DNA of 64,000 bases from Geothrix sp. PMB-07 (GTDB taxonomy: Bacteria; Acidobacteriota; Holophagae; Holophagales; Holophagaceae). The translations under genes and the position numbers were made by a program. Shown here piece after piece: positions 18,919 to 46,580 of this stretch (positions are counted from its first letter, which is position 1; each line of letters starts with the position of its first letter). The notes under the pieces were generated by a model, which ran no database searches, was not told the origin of the DNA, and saw only the letters and a list, made by a program, of their open reading frames with translations. The stretch lies in assembly GCF_030758935.1 (NCBI RefSeq), contig NZ_CP132333.1, forward strand, positions 930,992-994,991, written 5' to 3'.

Positions 18919-21900
18919 TCAGCGCTTGATGCTGAGGGTGTATTTGGCGCTGCTCCCCTGCTGGGTCAGGCTGTAGACCTGCAGGTAGACCGTCATCTGG
19001 GCCAGGCCGCGGGGCTGGGCCGGAATGGTGATGACCTGGCCGCCCGCGGACTGGGTGGGCTGGCCGACGAGGCCCTGACCCGCGAGGCCTTGAGGGAAGG
19101 CGATGCCGTAGTACATGCCCGGCGGCGGCATGAGGATGAGCTGGACGGATTGGCCCGCCGTGAGCGTGAGGGCGTAGGTGTCCACATCGGTGCCGGTGGA
19201 GATGGCGCCGATGACCGTGGTGACGCTGCTGCCGATGACATTGGCTGTGGCCACGGTGTCGTTGAATTCCGTCTCGAGCAGGACGCTGGAGGGCGGGGCG
19301 TTGTTGATGCTGAAGGCCACGGTGGCGGAAGTTCCGACGTTTCCGGAGGCATCATAGGCCTTGGCCACCAGGCTGTGGCTGGCGTTGGTCACCGTCGTCG
19401 AGTCGAAGGCGAAGGTGTAGGGCGAAGCCGTGGCGCTGCCTTTCAGTGCGCCATCCACGTAGTAGTCCACGCGGGTGACGCCGACGTTGTCGGTGGCGGT
19501 GGCGCTGAAGGTGACAGTGCCTGAGGTGCCGGAGACCTGGGCCGCCACCGTGGGCGCTGTGTTGTCGTTCTTGATGGCGAAGGCGAGGGCCGCAGAAGTG
19601 CCCACATTGCCGGCGGCATCGTAGGCCTTGGCCACGAGGGTGTGGTTGCCGTCGATCAGGGTGGTGGAGAGGAAGGCGAGGTTGTAGGGCGAAGCGGAGG
19701 CACTGCCCTTGAGCACACCGTCCACGTAATACTCGACGCGGGTGACGCCGACATTGTCCGCGGCGGTGGCGCTGAAGGTGAGGGTGCCGGAGGTGCCGGT
19801 GACCTTGGCCACCACGGTGGGTGCGGTTAGGTCATTGCTGAGTGAGAAGACCACCGTCGCGGAGGTGCCGACATTCCCGGCGGCGTCATAGGCCTTCGCC
19901 ACGAGGCTGTGGTTGCCATTGGCAAGGGCTGTAGAGACAAAGGCGAAGGCATAGGGCGAAGCCGTGGCGCTGCCCTTGAGCACGCCATCCACGTAGTAGT
20001 CCACGCGGGTGACGCCGACGTTGTCGGTGGCGGTGGCGCTGAAGGTGAGGGTGCCCGAGGTGCCCGTGACCTTGGCGGCCACGGTGGGGGCGATCAGGTC
20101 ATTGTTGACGGTGAAGGTCACCGTGGCGGAGGTTCCGACATTCCCGGAGGCGTCATAGGCCTTGGCCACGAGGCTGTGGCTGCCGTTGGCAAGGACTGTG
20201 GACACAAAGGCGAAGGCATAGGGCGAAGCCGTGGCGCTGCCCTTGAGCACGCCATCCACGTAGTAGTCCACGCGGGTGACGCCGACGTTGTCGGTGGCCG
20301 TGGCGCTGAAGCTGAGGGTGCCGGAGGTGCCGGTGACCTTGGCCACCACGGTGGGTGCGGTGATGTCGTTCTTGGTCGCGAAGGTGAGGGTGGCGGAAGT
20401 GCCCACATTCCCCGCGGCGTCGTAGGCCTTGGCCACCAGGCTGTGGTTGCCGTCGGTCAGGGTGGTGGAGAGGAAGGTGACGTTGTAGGGCGAGACAGTG
20501 GAGCTGCCCTTGAGGGCACCATCCACGTAGTAGTCCACGCGGATGACGCCGACATTGTCGGTGGCAGTGGCGCTGAAGGTGAGGGTGCCCGAGGTGCCCG
20601 TGACCTTGGCCACCACATTGGGGGCCGTGAGATCGTTGTTGAGCGTGAAGGCCACGGAGGTGGAGGTGCCGACATTCCCGGCGGCATCATAGGCCTTGGC
20701 CACGAGGCTGTGGCTGCCGTTGGCCAGGGCCGTGGACACAAAGGCGAAGGTGTAGGGCGAAGCGGTGGCGCTGCCCTTGAGCACGCCATCCACGTAGTAG
20801 TCCACACGGGTGACGCCGACGTTGTCCGCGGCGGTGGCGCTGAAGGTGAGGGTTCCGGAGGTGCCGGTGACCTTGGCGGCCACGGTGGGGGCCGTGAAGT
20901 CGTTGTTGAGCGTAAAGGCCACTGTCGAAGAGGTGCCGACATTCCCGGCGGCGTCGTAGGCTTTGGCCACGAGGCTGTGGCTGCCGTTGGCCAGGGCCGT
21001 GGACACAAAGGCGAAGGTGTAGGGCGAAGCGGTGGCGCTGCCTTTGATTACGCCATCCACGTAGTAGTCCACGCGGGTGACGCCCACGTTGTCGGTGGCT
21101 GTGGCGCTGAAGGTCACGGTGCCGGAGGTTCCGGTGGCGGACGCGCTTACCATGGGCGCAGTGGTGTCCGCAGGCTTCCAGGCGCTGCCCACATTGATGG
21201 CGGCAAACGCGTTCCAGACGGCGGCTTCTTCGGCTCCACCGGCGCCGTAGAGCTCGGCCGCTGAGGCAATGGCGCCGTTGCGGGCGGCCAGGTAGTTGCT
21301 GGTGGACGTGAGGCGCGTGCTGAGGGTGCGCCACCAGATGCGCACGGCCTTGTCGTTGCCGATGCCCTTCATGCCTGCGGGAAGGTAGCTGCTGTACGAG
21401 GTGCTGGAGGCGGTGGCGGAGCTGCCCTGGCTGAGGAAGTAGAAGGCGCGGTTCATGGGGCCGGAGCTGTAGTGGACGTCCAGGCTGCCCAGGCTGGCGC
21501 TCCAGGCGTCGGGGCTGGCGCCGTCGAGGCTGGGCTTGTACATGTAGCGAAGGGGATTGGGGAAGGAGGGGTTGGTGAGCTGCTCTCCGATGGTCCAGGT
21601 GCCGCCTGTGTCAGGAACCACCGTTCCGATGCCTTGCGCGCCACGGCTGTAGAACTCCACCATGGTGCCCAGGATGTCGGAGTTGGCCTCGTTGAGACCG
21701 CCACTCTCGCCGTAGTAGGCCAGATTGGCGGTGGTGGCGCAGACGCCGTGGGACATCTCATGGCCCGCCACGTCCAGGGCTGTGAGGGTCTTGAGGACGC
21801 TGCCATCGCCGTAGGTCATGCAGAAGCAGGCATCCGACCAGAAGGCGTTGTCATAGCGCGAACCGTAATGCACCCGGCTGGTCACGGTGCGGCCGGTGCC

Positions 21901-22869
21901 GTCGATGCCATTGCGGCCGAGGACATTCTTGTAGAAATCCCAGGTGGCCTGCATGCCGTAGTGGGCGTCCACCGCGGCGGTTTGGCCATTGGCGGAGGTG
22001 GTGCTACCACCAGCCACGAAGTTGGTACCGTCGCCCCAGCTGTCCGCGGTGGAAGTGTAGATCGTGCCATTGCCCGAGGTGGCACCCGCCATGTTCACGG
22101 TGGCGTTGCTGGAACGGCGCATGTCCCGCAGCTCGTAGCCTGAGGTGAGGCTGTTGGTGCTGAGGGTGACGGTGCCGCTGTACTCCGATTTGCCGACGCC
22201 ATCGTGGACCGCCGTGTGCAGGGTGGACCACTGCTTGATGACGCCGCCGGTGTGGGCATGGACCAAAAGGTCTTCATGCCGGGTGTCGGCATCCTGCTCC
22301 ATTTCGGCATGCACCAGGTAGGCCAGCTCGTGACCCACGGTGACTTCCTCGAAATCCTCGGCGTTCACGGCCTTCTTCACCCCGGTACGGGGCACCAGCC
22401 GCGTGATAGGGACAATGACCAACTCAGCGCTAGGTGGTGCCGAGTAGCCGAATTTGGGAGCGATCTGGAGGTGAGCTGTCGCCAGGGCCTCGCTGGCTTC
22501 AAGCGTGGGTTGAGGATGGATGAAAAGCCCCCTGGACAGGGTGTCTGCGGTGGCTTTCAGACTGCCATCGTGACCTTCCCGCAGGATCAGTTCGCCCCCA
22601 AGCACCCGGAGGCCCTGGAAATACTGCAGTCCGCGGTGATGAACTGCGGCAGTGGCGTCGGGCACGGTCCGCTGCTGCCGGATGGTGTGGCGCTCATCCA
22701 GGCCGCGCCCAAGCTCAGAGTGGGCCCTGACCGCGGCCGTGATCCGGTAATCAGCACTGCGCTCTTCGCCGGAAAGCGTCGGCGTCTCCGCGGCTAGCAC
22801 GAAAGAGAACACGCTAAGGCAGGGAAGGCCGAGACAAGGTAGGGCGATGCGACGGCAGCAACCGGTCAT
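18919..22869 (-). CDS. Secreted M4 (thermolysin-like) metalloprotease with seven Ig-like repeats and a C-terminal PPC domain
   Basis: This 1316-residue secreted protease begins with a Sec signal (residues 1-26) and an FTP/PepSY-like propeptide to about residue 220. The M4 catalytic domain follows: HEMSH supplies zinc ligands His370 and His374 and catalytic Glu371; GGLNEANSD supplies Glu394; DVHYSSGPMNR holds the catalytic His. Residues 568-1190 are seven tandem Ig-like units of 89 residues each (TDNVGVTRVDYYVDG type, as in bacterial Big domains). The last about 125 residues form a PPC-type domain (ETEFNDTVATAN). M4 enzymes degrade extracellular proteins; the repeats probably bind substrate or hold the enzyme at the cell surface. 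The start has GAGG 5 bases upstream. A long intergenic region separates it from the divergent DUF885 gene. Confidence 0.95.
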   Translation of the reverse strand: MTGCCRRIALPCLGLPCLSVFSFVLAAETPTLSGEERSADYRITAAVRAHSELGRGLDERHTIRQQRTVPDATAAVHHRGLQYFQGLRVLGGELILREGHDGSLKATADTLSRGLFIHPQPTLEASEALATAHLQIAPKFGYSAPPSAELVIVPITRLVPRTGVKKAVNAEDFEEVTVGHELAYLVHAEMEQDADTRHEDLLVHAHTGGVIKQWSTLHTAVHDGVGKSEYSGTVTLSTNSLTSGYELRDMRRSSNATVNMAGATSGNGTIYTSTADSWGDGTNFVAGGSTTSANGQTAAVDAHYGMQATWDFYKNVLGRNGIDGTGRTVTSRVHYGSRYDNAFWSDACFCMTYGDGSVLKTLTALDVAGHEMSHGVCATTANLAYYGESGGLNEANSDILGTMVEFYSRGAQGIGTVVPDTGGTWTIGEQLTNPSFPNPLRYMYKPSLDGASPDAWSASLGSLDVHYSSGPMNRAFYFLSQGSSATASSTSYSSYLPAGMKGIGNDKAVRIWWRTLSTRLTSTSNYLAARNGAIASAAELYGAGGAEEAAVWNAFAAINVGSAWKPADTTAPMVSASATGTSGTVTFSATATDNVGVTRVDYYVDGVIKGSATASPYTFAFVSTALANGSHSLVAKAYDAAGNVGTSSTVAFTLNNDFTAPTVAAKVTGTSGTLTFSATAADNVGVTRVDYYVDGVLKGSATASPYTFAFVSTALANGSHSLVAKAYDAAGNVGTSTSVAFTLNNDLTAPNVVAKVTGTSGTLTFSATATDNVGVIRVDYYVDGALKGSSTVSPYNVTFLSTTLTDGNHSLVAKAYDAAGNVGTSATLTFATKNDITAPTVVAKVTGTSGTLSFSATATDNVGVTRVDYYVDGVLKGSATASPYAFAFVSTVLANGSHSLVAKAYDASGNVGTSATVTFTVNNDLIAPTVAAKVTGTSGTLTFSATATDNVGVTRVDYYVDGVLKGSATASPYAFAFVSTALANGNHSLVAKAYDAAGNVGTSATVVFSLSNDLTAPTVVAKVTGTSGTLTFSATAADNVGVTRVEYYVDGVLKGSASASPYNLAFLSTTLIDGNHTLVAKAYDAAGNVGTSAALAFAIKNDNTAPTVAAQVSGTSGTVTFSATATDNVGVTRVDYYVDGALKGSATASPYTFAFDSTTVTNASHSLVAKAYDASGNVGTSATVAFSINNAPPSSVLLETEFNDTVATANVIGSSVTTVIGAISTGTDVDTYALTLTAGQSVQLILMPPPGMYYGIAFPQGLAGQGLVGQPTQSAGGQVITIPAQPRGLAQMTVYLQVYSLTQQGSSAKYTLSIKR
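19300..21168 (-). repeat. Seven tandem 267-base coding repeats in the M4 peptidase gene
   Basis: The segment is 1869 bases, exactly seven units of 267 bases, each encoding one 89-residue Ig-like module. Units share long identical stretches of DNA, for example the block encoding VDYYVDG, and differ mainly at the Ala/Val and ending positions. Such near-identity implies recent duplication or gene conversion, and the copy number may vary between strains. Confidence 0.92.
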
Positions 22870-41053: not shown

Positions 41054-41239
41054 TCATGCGTTTCCAGGTGCACCCTGGTGAAAGCTGGCCGGATGACCGG
41101 CCATTTGACGTAGTGTGAAAACAATGAATAAATGATGCATAAACAAGGCTTGAATTGAAAACATGGGCCCCGGACTGACCGCCCGCGTGGAAAAATAGAC
41201 AACCGACGTCAGCTATGGGTGTCGGGTTGGGGAGGCACC

Positions 41240-42568
41240 TTGGGCGATCCACTGTTCTGGCACCGGCTGCAATTCGGCTTCACGGCTACGTATCACTACC
41301 TGTTCCCCCAGCTCACCATGGGCTTGGCCTTCATCATCGTGGTGTTGAAGGCCTTGGGCCTGAAGACGGGGGAGGCCCGCTACAACGACGCGGCCCGGTT
41401 CTGGATCCGCATCTTCGGCATCAACTTCGCCGTGGGCGTGGTGACGGGCATTCCCCTGGAGTTCCAGTTCGGCACCAACTGGGCGCGCTTCTCGCGGCTT
41501 TCCGGCGGCATCATCGGCCAAACGCTGGGCATGGAGGGCATGTTCGCCTTCTTCCTGGAGAGCAGCTTCCTGGGCCTGCTGATCTGGGGCGAGAAGAAGC
41601 TGTCGCCCAAGGGGCACTTCGGCGCCGCGGTGGCGCTGTGGCTGGGCAGCTGGCTGTCAGGCTTCTTCATCGTGGCCACCAATGCCTTCATGCAGCATCC
41701 CGTGGGCTACACCCTCATGGCCGATGGCACCCTGCAGCTGCAGAGCTTCTCGGCCTTCCTGATGAACCCCTGGGCCCATGTGCAGTACGCCCACACGATG
41801 ATCGCCTCCGTGGTGACCGGCTCCTTCGTGGTGGCGGCCATCGGTGCGTATTGGACGCTCAAGGGCATCCACCAGGAACAGGCGAAACTGAACCTGCGGG
41901 TGGGCACGATCCTGGGCCTCATCTTCAGTGTGCTCGTCGCCTTCCCCACGGGCGACCTGCAGGGTAAGCAGGTGGCCAAGCACCAGCCCGTCACGCTGGC
42001 GGCCATGGAGGGCCGCTTCGAGAGCGGGCCCAAAGCCAGCCTCACCCTCATCGGCCAGCCCGATGTGGCGCAGCGGAAGATTGAGAACCCCGTGAAGGTT
42101 CCGGCGGTGCTGAGCTTCATCGCCTATGGCACCTTCTCCAGCAATGTGAAGGGCCTGCTCGAATTCCCCGAGGACCAGTGGCCTCAGAACATCGAGCTGC
42201 TCTACTACAGCTTCCACATCATGGCCGGCCTGGGCACGCTGATGATCGCGCTGATGGCTCTGGCGGCGCTGCTGCTTTGGAAAGGGAAGCTGGATGGCAA
42301 CCGGCCCGTGCTCTGGGCGCTGATGCTGGCCTTCCCCTTCCCCTACATCGCCACCACGGCGGGTTGGGCCGTGGCCGAATTTGGTCGCCAGCCCTGGCTC
42401 ATCTATGGCGTGCTGCGCACGGTACACGGCGCCTCGCCTACGGTGCATGCGGGCCACACGGCCTTCACCACCCTGGGCTTCGCCGGCATCTTCGTGGTGC
42501 TGAGCGCCCTGTGGCTCTTCCTCATCGGCCGTGAGATCGCCCACGGCCCCGCTTCCCACCAAGCCTAG
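41240..42568 (+). CDS. cydA: Cytochrome bd ubiquinol/menaquinol oxidase subunit I
   Basis: This 442-residue integral membrane subunit carries the haems and quinol site of the bd-type oxygen reductase. With TTG 41240 as start, His19 (ATYHYLFP) falls exactly at the haem b595 ligand position of the E. coli protein, and His185 (QYAHTMIA) matches the b558 ligand. The conserved AEFGRQPWLIYG segment is present. GGGGAGG lies 4 bases before the TTG, whereas the in-frame GTG at 41219 has no ribosome-binding site. The periplasmic Q-loop is short, as in the CIO-type enzymes. The complex reduces oxygen without pumping protons and gives high oxygen affinity or cyanide/sulfide resistance. cydB follows after 9 bases. 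Confidence 0.95.
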   Translation: MGDPLFWHRLQFGFTATYHYLFPQLTMGLAFIIVVLKALGLKTGEARYNDAARFWIRIFGINFAVGVVTGIPLEFQFGTNWARFSRLSGGIIGQTLGMEGMFAFFLESSFLGLLIWGEKKLSPKGHFGAAVALWLGSWLSGFFIVATNAFMQHPVGYTLMADGTLQLQSFSAFLMNPWAHVQYAHTMIASVVTGSFVVAAIGAYWTLKGIHQEQAKLNLRVGTILGLIFSVLVAFPTGDLQGKQVAKHQPVTLAAMEGRFESGPKASLTLIGQPDVAQRKIENPVKVPAVLSFIAYGTFSSNVKGLLEFPEDQWPQNIELLYYSFHIMAGLGTLMIALMALAALLLWKGKLDGNRPVLWALMLAFPFPYIATTAGWAVAEFGRQPWLIYGVLRTVHGASPTVHAGHTAFTTLGFAGIFVVLSALWLFLIGREIAHGPASHQA

Positions 42569-42577
42569 GAGATCGCC

Positions 42578-43624
42578 ATGGAAATGCTTTGGTTCTGGCT
42601 GGTCTCCGTGATGGTCGCCATCTACGTGGTCATGGATGGCTTTGATTTCGGTGCGGGCATCCTGCACCTCTTTGTGGCGAAGACCAACGAGGAGCGGCGC
42701 GAAGTGCTGGGGGCCATCGGCCCCTTCTGGGATGGCAACGAGGTGTGGCTGCTGGCGGGCGGCGGCTCCCTGTTCCTGGCCTTCCCCAAGGTGCTGGCCT
42801 CGGGTTTCTCCGGGTTCTACCTGGCCATGTGGCTGGTGGTCTGGTGCCTGATGCTGCGGGGCATCTCCATCGAATTCCGTTCCCACGTGGAAGACAGCCT
42901 CTGGCGCGCCTTCTGGGATGGCACCTTCGCCGTGTCCAGCATCCTGCTGCCGGTGCTGTTGGGCGCGGCCCTGGGCAACGTGCTGCGGGGCGTGCCGCTG
43001 GACGCCAGCGGCTACTTCGGCATGGCTCTCTGGACGAATTTCCGCATGGGCGCCCAGCCCGGCATCCTCGATTGGTACACGCTGCTGGTGGGCGTGCTGG
43101 TGCTGGCCACGGTGGCGGGCCACGGCGCACTGTTTCTTACCTGGAAAACGGAGGGGGCCGTGCATGAACGCTCCCGGAAGCTGGCCGGGCCACTGTGGCT
43201 CGCGGTGCTGGTGCTGTGGGTGCTGGCCACCGCCGCCACCTCCACCGTCAACGCTGGCCTCTTTGTGAACTGGCAGAAGGCGCCCCTGGCCTGGCTGGCC
43301 ACAGCCATCTTTGTCGGTGGGCTGGGCGTGGTGTTCTTTGGATTGCGCCGCGAGAAGCACCTGCTGGCCTTCCTCGGATCCGGCGCCTTCATCGTGGGCA
43401 TTCTGGCCGCCAGCGCCGCCTGCTCCTACCCCGTGATGCTGAAATCGACCCTCGACCCTGCCTACGACCTCACGGCGCTCAACGCCAGCGTGGGCCAGCA
43501 CGGCCTCCGCACGGGCCTGGTCTGGTGGTTCATCGGCTTCCCCCTGGCCATCGGCTACCTGACCTTCCTGTTCCGCTTCCACCGCGGCAAGGTGAAGGCG
43601 GCGGCGGAAGGCGAGGGCTACTGA
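42578..43624 (+). CDS. cydB: Cytochrome bd oxidase subunit II
   Basis: This is a 348-residue protein with about eight to nine transmembrane helices. The signature opening VVMDGFDFGAGIL and the WDGNEVWLLAGGGSLFLAFP and RGISIEFR stretches identify CydB. It supports haem assembly and stability of subunit I. AGGAG lies 8 bases before the ATG, and the gene is co-transcribed with cydA. No small cydX/cydY reading frame is visible in the short region after the stop, and no cydCD exporter is nearby. The next gene is convergent. Confidence 0.95.
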   Translation: MEMLWFWLVSVMVAIYVVMDGFDFGAGILHLFVAKTNEERREVLGAIGPFWDGNEVWLLAGGGSLFLAFPKVLASGFSGFYLAMWLVVWCLMLRGISIEFRSHVEDSLWRAFWDGTFAVSSILLPVLLGAALGNVLRGVPLDASGYFGMALWTNFRMGAQPGILDWYTLLVGVLVLATVAGHGALFLTWKTEGAVHERSRKLAGPLWLAVLVLWVLATAATSTVNAGLFVNWQKAPLAWLATAIFVGGLGVVFFGLRREKHLLAFLGSGAFIVGILAASAACSYPVMLKSTLDPAYDLTALNASVGQHGLRTGLVWWFIGFPLAIGYLTFLFRFHRGKVKAAAEGEGY

Positions 43625-45128: not shown

Positions 45129-46580
45129 TCACTTCATGCCGAAGTCCTTGAGGATCTTCGGATCCTTCTCATCCTGGGCCAGGATGGTGTGGCAGGTATC
45201 GCAGTCGCCCTTGATGGTGCGGCCATCGGTGGCGGTGTGCATGCCGTCGTGGCAGCGGAAACAGCCCACGGCTTCCTCATGCCCGATGTTGTTGGGATGG
45301 GTGCCCCAGGTGATCTTCATTTCGGGGAAGACGTTGCGGAGGTAGATGGCCTTCACCACCTCACCGGCGGTGTCCACGGCCGCGCGCTTCTGCTTGTAGA
45401 TCTCGGGGTACGTGGTGCGGTAATACTCGGCCAGGTCCACGGGGATCTTGGCGGCGGCGGCCTTTTGATCGGTGTATTCCACCTTCAGCAGTTCCACGGC
45501 CTTCTTCTTGATGAAGGGCAGCTCGGCGCTCATGCGCTTGCTGGCCAGGGCCTTGTCTACGGCGCGATCCGGCAGCTGGAAGGCGTGGGTGGGGCGGTTG
45601 TGGCAGTCGATGCAATCCATGGCGCGGGTGCTGGCCTTGTCCAGCTTCTCCTTGGGCAGGGTCTTGTAGTCGTCTGACACATATTCGGTGAGCGTGCCGT
45701 TCTCCTCGCGGTAGGTGACCTTGGGGATCTCCTGGCGGCGGGGATCGGTGCTCACGTAGGTGATGCGGGACATGGCATCGAGATGTCGGCCATGAATGCC
45801 CGTGGTGCCATTGGGCGTGTGGCCGCCGATCTTCAGCAGCAGGATGCTGGTGGTGGCGGTGTTGGCTTCGTCATCCGCGAACTTGGTGCGCACGATGAGC
45901 TTGTCGTCGGAGAACTTCTGGGGCCAGTGGCACTGTTCGCAGGTTTCGCGGGCGGGGCGCAGGTGTTCGACGGGGCTGGGAATGGGGCGGGAGAAGGTGC
46001 CGAAGGCCACCGCGAAGAGCTGGCGGGTGCCCGAGAGCTTCGCGCGCACCAGGGCCGGAGCGCCATGGCCGATGTGACACTGGGCGCAGCCCACGCGGGA
46101 GTGGGGTGAATCCAGGAAGGCCGTGTACTCGGGGCTCATCACCGTGTGGCAGGTGAGGCCGCAGAACTGGTTGGAATCCATGTATTCCACGCCCTTGAGT
46201 CCGGCGGTGCCCAGGATGCTCACGTTGATGAAGGTGAGCACGCCCACCACGGTGAGCAGGCGCCGCACACCCGGTTGTTTGAAATCCACGGCCTGCAGGG
46301 GCAGGGTGGCTTCACCCGCGGCCTTGCGCTTGCGGCGCTCGCGCAGGATGCCGAAGGGGATGAGCACCAGGCCCACGAGGAACAGGGCAGGCAGGGCGAT
46401 GAACAGCAGGATGCCCGCGTAGGGATGGATCTGCCGGGGGCTGCTGAGTTCCATGAACCAGAACCAGATGAGCACGAAGGCGGAGCTGGTGGTCAGGGCC
46501 GTGCCCGCCAAGGTCATCCAGTTGTTGCCCATCTGGAAAGCCAGCCGGGTCAGATCCCTGACGCGTTCTCCCAAAGTCAT
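45129..46580 (-). CDS. Membrane-anchored multihaem c-type cytochrome, NapC/NirT-like (ImcH-like layout)
   Basis: This 483-residue protein has three N-terminal transmembrane helices (about residues 22-44, 54-78 and 105-128) and a large periplasmic domain. Haem motifs are seen at residue 140 (CGLTCH, with three residues between the cysteines), 165 (CAQCH), 214 (CEQCH), 323 (CIDCH), 440 (CFRCH) and 460 (CDTCH), giving six candidate haems. The VMSPEY and SPHSRVGC stretches are typical of NapC/NirT quinol dehydrogenases. Three helices followed by a NapC core and extra haems is the arrangement of ImcH, the quinol oxidase used for extracellular electron transfer in Geobacter. The start has GGAGG 6 bases upstream. 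It is the first gene of an operon with cmk. Confidence 0.88.
   Translation of the reverse strand: MTLGERVRDLTRLAFQMGNNWMTLAGTALTTSSAFVLIWFWFMELSSPRQIHPYAGILLFIALPALFLVGLVLIPFGILRERRKRKAAGEATLPLQAVDFKQPGVRRLLTVVGVLTFINVSILGTAGLKGVEYMDSNQFCGLTCHTVMSPEYTAFLDSPHSRVGCAQCHIGHGAPALVRAKLSGTRQLFAVAFGTFSRPIPSPVEHLRPARETCEQCHWPQKFSDDKLIVRTKFADDEANTATTSILLLKIGGHTPNGTTGIHGRHLDAMSRITYVSTDPRRQEIPKVTYREENGTLTEYVSDDYKTLPKEKLDKASTRAMDCIDCHNRPTHAFQLPDRAVDKALASKRMSAELPFIKKKAVELLKVEYTDQKAAAAKIPVDLAEYYRTTYPEIYKQKRAAVDTAGEVVKAIYLRNVFPEMKITWGTHPNNIGHEEAVGCFRCHDGMHTATDGRTIKGDCDTCHTILAQDEKDPKILKDFGMK

Follow-up and report, generated by a model that had tools for sequence, protein, structure and literature searches.

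An ImcH-type hexahaem cytochrome in Geothrix sp. PMB-07 and a likely link between its acidobacterial relatives and Mtr-type conduits

CymA, NapC and TorC are membrane cytochromes of the NapC/NirT type that oxidise quinol and deliver to the periplasm. CymA has been characterized in print as such a quinol-oxidising NapC/NirT membrane cytochrome, of 187-364 aa with one helix and four or five haems (PMC6295460). The same survey (Zhong and Shi, 2018, PMC6295460) describes a further family, ImcH, by three N-terminal helices, an adjacent atypical CX3CH and 5-9 CX2CH motifs, with NapC/NirT similarity that spans helix 3 together with the first haem sites, and lists Geothrix fermentans among the organisms that have it; identity between ImcH groups is reported as 31.5-49%. 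In Geobacter, ImcH is stated to work at potentials above about -0.1 V, oxidising menaquinol and passing electrons to PpcA (2025 review, PMC12307469). ImcH, CbcL, CbcBA and CymA have been ranked with the best available markers for extracellular electron transfer (EET; PMC12977616), and imcH and cbcL were among the transcribed genes of sediment MAGs that include a Holophaga and a Geothrix (PMC11748539). Two surveys frame the genetic setting of these systems. In the first, no mtrAB lay next to imcH (Zhong and Shi, 2018, PMC6295460); the second describes acidobacterial 'Group 5' mtrCAB clusters in which a tetrahaem gene directly follows mtrB and no inner-membrane quinone oxidoreductase is encoded nearby (Baker and others, 2022, PMC8805035).

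The locus considered here lies in a window of 64,000 nucleotides (the whole stretch of DNA that was analysed), which corresponds to C1:930992-994991 of the 4.24-Mb single-contig genome of Geothrix sp. PMB-07. On its minus strand an open frame fills 45129-46580, with an ATG at 46580 and a stop at 45129, and encodes a 483-aa protein, P0001, with a computed apo mass of 53.9 kDa. A preliminary description had read this protein as a cytochrome with six haem motifs including an atypical CGLTCH first site, a NapC/NirT core and three membrane helices. All of these elements are borne out: one CX3CH and five CX2CH motifs are counted, PF03264 (NapC/NirT) matches residues 112-197 at 48.8 bits against a cut-off of 24.1, and three helices are found both in an AlphaFold model (mean pLDDT 82.5) and by hydropathy, which is weaker for helix 1 (1.47) and strong for helices 2 (2.91) and 3 (2.02). 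The CGLTCH site (residues 140-145) sits after helix 3. The features are as follows.

45129..46580, minus strand: imcH-type gene encoding P0001, a predicted 483-aa inner-membrane hexahaem cytochrome
46443..46520, minus strand: predicted membrane helix 1, residues 21-46 (model; hydropathy weaker, 1.47)
46320..46424, minus strand: predicted membrane helix 2, residues 53-87 (model and hydropathy)
46179..46274, minus strand: predicted membrane helix 3, residues 103-134, where the NapC/NirT core begins (model, hydropathy and PF03264)
46146..46163, minus strand: haem site 1, CGLTCH (CX3CH), residues 140-145
46137..46139, minus strand: Met148, proposed haem 1 ligand, aligned with the methionine of NrfH CxxCHxM (invariant, 57/57)
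46074..46088, minus strand: haem site 2, CAQCH, residues 165-169
46038..46040, minus strand: Lys181, aligned with NrfH Lys82 of the quinol site (invariant, 57/57)
46020..46022, minus strand: Gln187, where NrfH has Asp89 (invariant, 57/57)
45927..45941, minus strand: haem site 3, CEQCH, residues 214-218
45600..45614, minus strand: haem site 4, CIDCH, residues 323-327
45249..45263, minus strand: haem site 5, CFRCH, residues 440-444
45189..45203, minus strand: haem site 6, CDTCH, residues 460-464

The gene stands between a recQ-like frame upstream and a cmk-like frame downstream (both named by eye), the latter overlapping its 3' end by 4 bases if the first start is used. Frames that read by eye as cydA and cydB (cytochrome bd oxidase) lie near it on the opposite strand (41219-43624, plus), and cydAB-like frames also occur in 13-14 of 80 related loci (the best 80 of 584 relatives). 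The only other frame of the window with two CX2CH motifs is a 117-aa stretch (21795-22145, plus) with CRRCH and CRSCH, which may be a zinc protein or a product of chance.

Relatives are represented by the best 80 of 584 matches to P0001, mostly Acidobacteriota, which form the named loci. The closest among them are Geothrix and Holophagaceae, with identities of 95% in a groundwater Acidobacteria MAG (L003), 85% in Geothrix limicola (L008) and 79% in Geothrix fermentans DSM 14018 (L015). When these 80 loci are joined by 30 rows from a phylum draw and 7 repeats, giving 117 rows in which many genes are present twice, exactly one CX3CH and five CX2CH are found in every row (117/117), and the motif pattern of P0001 is therefore not a matter of chance. 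Six haem sites are not a fixed rule for the clade, a proposition that was dropped, since the homologue at L189 carries one CX3CH and six CX2CH. Conservation by residue was assessed in a non-redundant set of 57 rows less than 85% identical. Every Cys and His of all six motifs is invariant there (57/57), as are Met148, Lys181, Gln187 and exactly five non-motif histidines (160, 263, 266, 332 and 434); His448 is present in 54/57. Five invariant histidines are enough for five bis-histidine haems, and we infer that the methionine serves haem 1 and the five histidines ligate haems 2-6.

Set beside the published ImcH description, P0001 shows the three N-terminal helices, the CX3CH beside them, five further CX2CH, and a NapC/NirT match over helix 3 and the first sites (PF03264, 112-197; NrfH profile, 115-219). 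PF03264 has three matches in the G. fermentans genome (G297), namely a 193-aa NrfH-like frame, a 505-aa orthologue of P0001 and a 1321-aa multihaem frame, and the orthologue, 79% identical to P0001, is the single gene of ImcH layout. Because G. fermentans is a named ImcH holder and has one gene of this layout, its published ImcH should, by exclusion, be that orthologue; as represented at L015, it has the same length and motifs as P0001 and differs by sequence divergence alone. The ImcH of Geobacter sulfurreducens, by its published description, resembles P0001 in its helices, CX3CH, NapC/NirT span and further CX2CH (PMC6295460), whereas the papers give six CX2CH and 495-519 aa for the Geobacter group, against five and 483 aa in P0001. 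Since Geobacter ImcH is known here from papers, the family link runs through the layout and the G. fermentans orthologue. The evidence supports placing P0001 with ImcH, its likeness to the Geobacter protein being one of description, and the ImcH-like layout noted in the preliminary description agrees with that of the published family, of which the orthologue is the sole such gene in G. fermentans. P0001 is a further ImcH in a genus for which ImcH has already been published, and as a candidate it is therefore not novel.

Other quinone-linked cytochromes fit less well. With 483 aa, three helices and six sites, P0001 departs from CymA, NapC and TorC, which have one helix and four or five haems; NapC and TorC also separate from it in the core tree described below. 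Proteins of the CbcL/MtoC/MtrH type are, like P0001, quinone-linked inner-membrane multihaem cytochromes of EET and are often its neighbours in relatives. They differ in a b561-type domain (PF01292) with the haems before it, a C-terminal b-type (HydC/FdnI-like) membrane domain of about six helices, and the NapC core is absent from their description. The helices of P0001 are N-terminal, and PF01292 reaches only E 0.067. The CX3CH site was rejected as proof of ImcH: it also occurs in Rhodoferax CymA (PMC6295460) and in a Selenomonas NapC/NirT protein, and is therefore not ImcH-specific. The latter, the one match in a plasmid search, is a 175-aa cytochrome with a CGEQCH first site, encoded beside a molybdopterin oxidoreductase (plasmid NC_017078.1, L172 2941-3468) and carrying Glu at the place of NrfH Asp89 (by eye). 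A viral scan gave no match.

The nearest solved structures are those of NrfH, and they raise the alternative that P0001 serves nitrite or nitrate reduction as a member of NrfH/NapC to which further haems have been added. By sequence, the best solved relative is NrfH (2j7a_C, E 3.7e-6 and 4.6e-6); by structure, the top Foldseek match of the P0001 model is NrfH 2vr0_F (probability 0.99 but E 0.076), and VIA-align superposes 144/145 NrfH residues on the model (Z 7.6, rmsd 3.7). VIA-align rows 1-3, which rank above NrfH, were set aside, as they cover the helical N-terminus alone at rmsd >8. The core likewise matches the NrfH profile TIGR03153, but at 53.1 bits it stays far under the cut-off of 134.2, just as the NapC/NirT subfamily profile TIGR02161 gives 26.1 bits against 310.6. 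A tree of the NapC/NirT core sets the family of P0001 apart from 10 NrfH/NapC rows with support of 94/88; having 133 columns and 67 rows, with ImcH rows picked by similarity, it shows this separation and no more. The grouping with NrfH that the preliminary description had named as contrary to its reading is thus not what the tree gives. Moreover, the P0001 gene is not beside nrfA; the nrfA-type gene is some 2.6 Mb along the contig, where it adjoins another PF03264 gene as an nrfHA pair. Membership of NrfH/NapC was rejected on the profile scores and the tree, and the probability that P0001 is an enlarged protein of this kind is negligible.

Comparison with NrfH is nevertheless instructive for the putative quinol site. 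P0001 shares with NrfH of Desulfovibrio vulgaris (2j7a, 2vr0) the core fold, the haem 1 methionine and Lys82, whereas NrfH has one helix, four haems and a CX2CH first site and is bound to NrfA. In the alignments, Met148 falls on the NrfH methionine, Lys181 on Lys82 and Gln187 on Asp89. In NrfH, Met49 and Asp89 have been called essential for menaquinol oxidation (PMC10654088), and Lys82 is named together with Asp89 (PMC4683180). That the ImcH-type family has Gln where NrfH has an acid thought essential is a counterpoint to reading P0001 as an ImcH-type menaquinol dehydrogenase. The NrfH encoded by this genome also seems to be without that acid (by eye), and the proposition that Gln187 is unique to the ImcH-type family was dropped for that reason.

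Taken as a member of the ImcH family, P0001 is likely to be a menaquinol dehydrogenase whose electrons leave by way of a periplasmic cytochrome and a porin-cytochrome conduit and end on Fe(III) or some other acceptor outside the cell. Its three N-terminal helices would anchor it in the inner membrane, and menaquinol, the presumed substrate, would be oxidised beside the CX3CH haem, held by Met148, near Lys181 and Gln187. From there, electrons would run along the five further haems, probably bis-histidine, to be handed to a periplasmic cytochrome as the putative partner, and the flow, assumed to be outward, would continue via the porin-cytochrome conduit to the acceptor. If that acceptor is iron, P0001 would carry electrons for iron reduction in this Geothrix.

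Other candidate EET parts are encoded elsewhere in the genome.

C1:411,150-416,829 (L162 7150-12829): OmcA/MtrC-family cluster made up of a haem-free frame (464 aa), two proteins with five haems each and one with ten (1004 aa)
C1:2,333,190-2,335,055 (L184 9190-11055): CbcL-type protein with 11 haem sites and a b-type domain

The ten-haem protein scores 404.6 bits with the OmcA/MtrC profile (cut-off 209.3). Porin-cytochrome genes have already been reported in Geothrix MAGs (PMC6344600). The CbcL-type protein was found through 55% identity to that of an acidobacterial relative; its gene is absent from our motif census of multihaem genes in this genome, which is accordingly incomplete. Two-haem and monohaem genes flank it. 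In most other genomes of the genus a second CbcL-type gene (about 35% identical) adjoins the first, and our genome and G240 have a single match each. A 1170-aa cytochrome at C1:4,009,493-4,013,005 (L169 9493-13005) carries 22 CX2CH and additionally three CX3CH (CALTCH, CALTCH and CTLSCH) and four CX4CH-like sites.

The same genome encodes several c3-type tetrahaem proteins, a flavocytochrome that resembles FccA in joining a c3-type haem domain to FAD_binding_2 (L165), and nrfHA, the second PF03264 gene standing beside the nrfA-type gene (L168). At L168 5206-10106, nrfH and the nrfA-type gene are followed by a 916-aa frame reading by eye as a molybdopterin oxidoreductase. This inventory would suit a general periplasmic quinol hub like Shewanella CymA, feeding fumarate and nitrate reductases, with extracellular respiration as one outlet or none in Geothrix, and such a hub would also agree with the fact that imcH in Geothrix is unclustered with EET genes. 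We nonetheless think a hub unlikely, as the informative neighbours of imcH in relatives are EET genes and rarely soluble reductases (L038 has nrfHA-like genes), and the nrfA of this genome has a separate NrfH.

Those neighbours were counted, with thresholds set by us, in the best 80 of 584 relatives, comprising 18 loci of the Geothrix lineage and 62 other named loci. None of the 18 Geothrix loci, some on short contigs, has a decahaem, barrel, CbcL-type or monohaem neighbour, a counterpoint to an EET role in this genus. Among the 62 loci outside the lineage, an MtrA-family decahaem gene accompanied by an MtrB-fold barrel gene occurs near imcH in 28, a barrel gene without a decahaem in 3 (where contigs end nearby), a CbcL-type gene in 23 and a small monohaem class I cytochrome gene in 40. 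Altogether 47/62 loci have one or more of the decahaem, barrel and CbcL neighbours, and 12/62 have none of the four types, several of these on short contigs. The decahaem at L058 scores 260.5 bits with TIGR03508 (cut-off 192.2) and matches 6r2q_A (E 1.2e-33), from an entry titled 'Structure of the Mtr complex' whose molecule label in the sequence match reads otherwise; we take chain A to be MtrA and chain B to be MtrB. Its 867-aa partner gene has no match among Pfam, NCBIfam or solved-sequence profiles. A model of the partner that draws on 24 relatives has a mean pLDDT of 65.6, with barrel strands often >90 and long loops <50; its first match is 6r2q_B both in Foldseek (E 1.2e-12) and in VIA-align (Z 20.2 over 557 residues at rmsd 3.8, against rmsd of about 9 to 11 in the rows that follow). 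By its predicted structure, the partner is an MtrB-fold barrel. Further afield, an OmcA/MtrC-family gene lies near imcH in Hydrogenedentota (L064 and L077). In Zixibacteria RBG-1 (L056 5086-14298), an imcH relative adjoins 9-haem and 19-haem genes preceded by Rieske-like and cytochrome b-like frames, perhaps a combined quinol-oxidising cluster, and in a member of Terriglobia (L038 8001-15467) imcH shares a stretch of less than 8 kb with a CbcL-type gene of 13 haems and a pair resembling nrfHA.

Four clusters in relatives were read gene by gene. In a Bryobacterales MAG (L045 1068-11403), one strand carries an mtrC-type gene (TIGR03507, 462.7 bits), an mtrA-type gene (240.8 bits), a 719-aa barrel-type gene, a tetrahaem gene, imcH and a CbcL-type gene; mtrA and barrel, and barrel and tetrahaem, overlap by 4 bases each, and imcH starts 135 bases past the tetrahaem gene. 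This cluster shares the 'Group 5' gene order, a match made by order and taxonomy. At L185 2128-8850 (G121), imcH lies inside a set of an mtrC-type, an mtrA-type and a 740-aa haem-free gene, between the first two of these. L187 1821-6781 holds a monohaem gene, imcH, an mtrA-type gene that overlaps imcH, and a 723-aa gene, and L189 664-9891 an imcH with seven sites followed by an mtrA-type and a 707-aa gene. The mtrC- and mtrA-type genes of L185, L187 and L189 are those called in the genome-wide searches described below, and the 740-, 723- and 707-aa genes are barrel candidates by size and place. In two clusters, then, imcH stands inside (L185) or directly after (L045) an mtrCAB set, and the clusters in relatives disagree with the 2018 survey on mtrAB beside imcH and with the 2022 survey on a quinone oxidoreductase near acidobacterial mtrCAB. 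The accessible part of the open-licence literature yielded no more recent account of an acidobacterial imcH adjoining mtrAB, and no acidobacterial terms were found in a paper on porin-cytochrome clusters (PMC4245776).

The sequences give no indication of the direction of electron flow, and the gene content of these clusters also invites a reverse reading for some relatives, in which ImcH would be a quinone reductase taking up electrons from Fe(II) or an electrode, as proposed for CymA and MtoC with MtoAB. MtrA/MtrB-type genes together with monohaem class I genes (the latter in 40/62 loci outside the Geothrix lineage, best 80 of 584) resemble MtoABD, and PioA/MtoA homologues have been reported in Acidobacteriia (PMC10654088). 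However, the literature portrays Geothrix as reducing Fe(III) (PMC6344600), the 2018 survey found ImcH only in Fe(III) reducers (PMC6295460), and some clusters include an OmcA/MtrC-family surface cytochrome. We regard electron uptake as highly improbable.

To place these clusters in the phylum at large, 297 Acidobacteriota genomes were drawn evenly. P0001 has matches at E 1e-3 in 157/297, and a call of imcH at 200 bits or more leaves 129, spanning many families, the other 28 being short or weak matches. An MtrA-type decahaem (E 1e-40) is present in 113/297 and both genes in 78/297 (odds ratio 5.8, Fisher 3e-12; Fisher tests here ignore shared ancestry). In those 78 genomes, the two share a contig in 38, lie within 10 kb in 32 and within 5 kb in 24. 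Genes of mtrC type, called at E 1e-40 with L045 as query (a threshold below which those of Geothrix fall), are found in 20/297, 17 of them with imcH, and within 10 kb of imcH in 5/20. Because many contigs are short, these adjacency counts are lower bounds. Within the draw, imcH is kept in 22/22 genomes of the genus of P0001, and in 31 Geothrix genomes the TIGR03508 cut-off is reached in one, via a long frame that joins neighbours, and in none of the others. Counterpoints to an EET role are that the 129 genomes with imcH span many families and that most named relatives (best 80 of 584) are soil and peat MAGs not known for metal respiration.

What is new here is that, in relatives, ImcH is linked to Mtr-type conduits, which weighs more than the P0001 gene itself. 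ImcH is a standard marker of extracellular respiration whose mechanism is thinly tested outside Geobacter, and this clade offers a compact hexahaem ImcH with a sharp list of invariant residues, including Gln where NrfH has the catalytic acid. After the two surveys, imcH had no mtrAB beside it and the mtrCAB of Acidobacteriota had no quinol gate; the clusters of relatives fill both gaps. Since imcH adjoins mtrAB or mtrCAB genes there, ImcH is likely the quinol gate of these Mtr-type conduits. A broader proposition, which we consider evenly poised, is that imcH is the missing quinol gate of acidobacterial MtrCAB-type conduits, that imcH and mtrAB, sometimes with mtrC and a CbcL-type gene, form one module from quinone pool to cell surface, and that Geothrix kept the gate without the MtrA/MtrB pair and wired it to a different porin-cytochrome cluster. 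If this is true, ImcH and Mtr would not be separate Geobacter-type and Shewanella-type pathways but would mix parts, and respiration outside the cell, or electron uptake, may extend across soil Acidobacteriota not known for it. With both gaps filled in sequenced clusters, the whole route of electrons in Acidobacteriota of soil and peat becomes directly testable.
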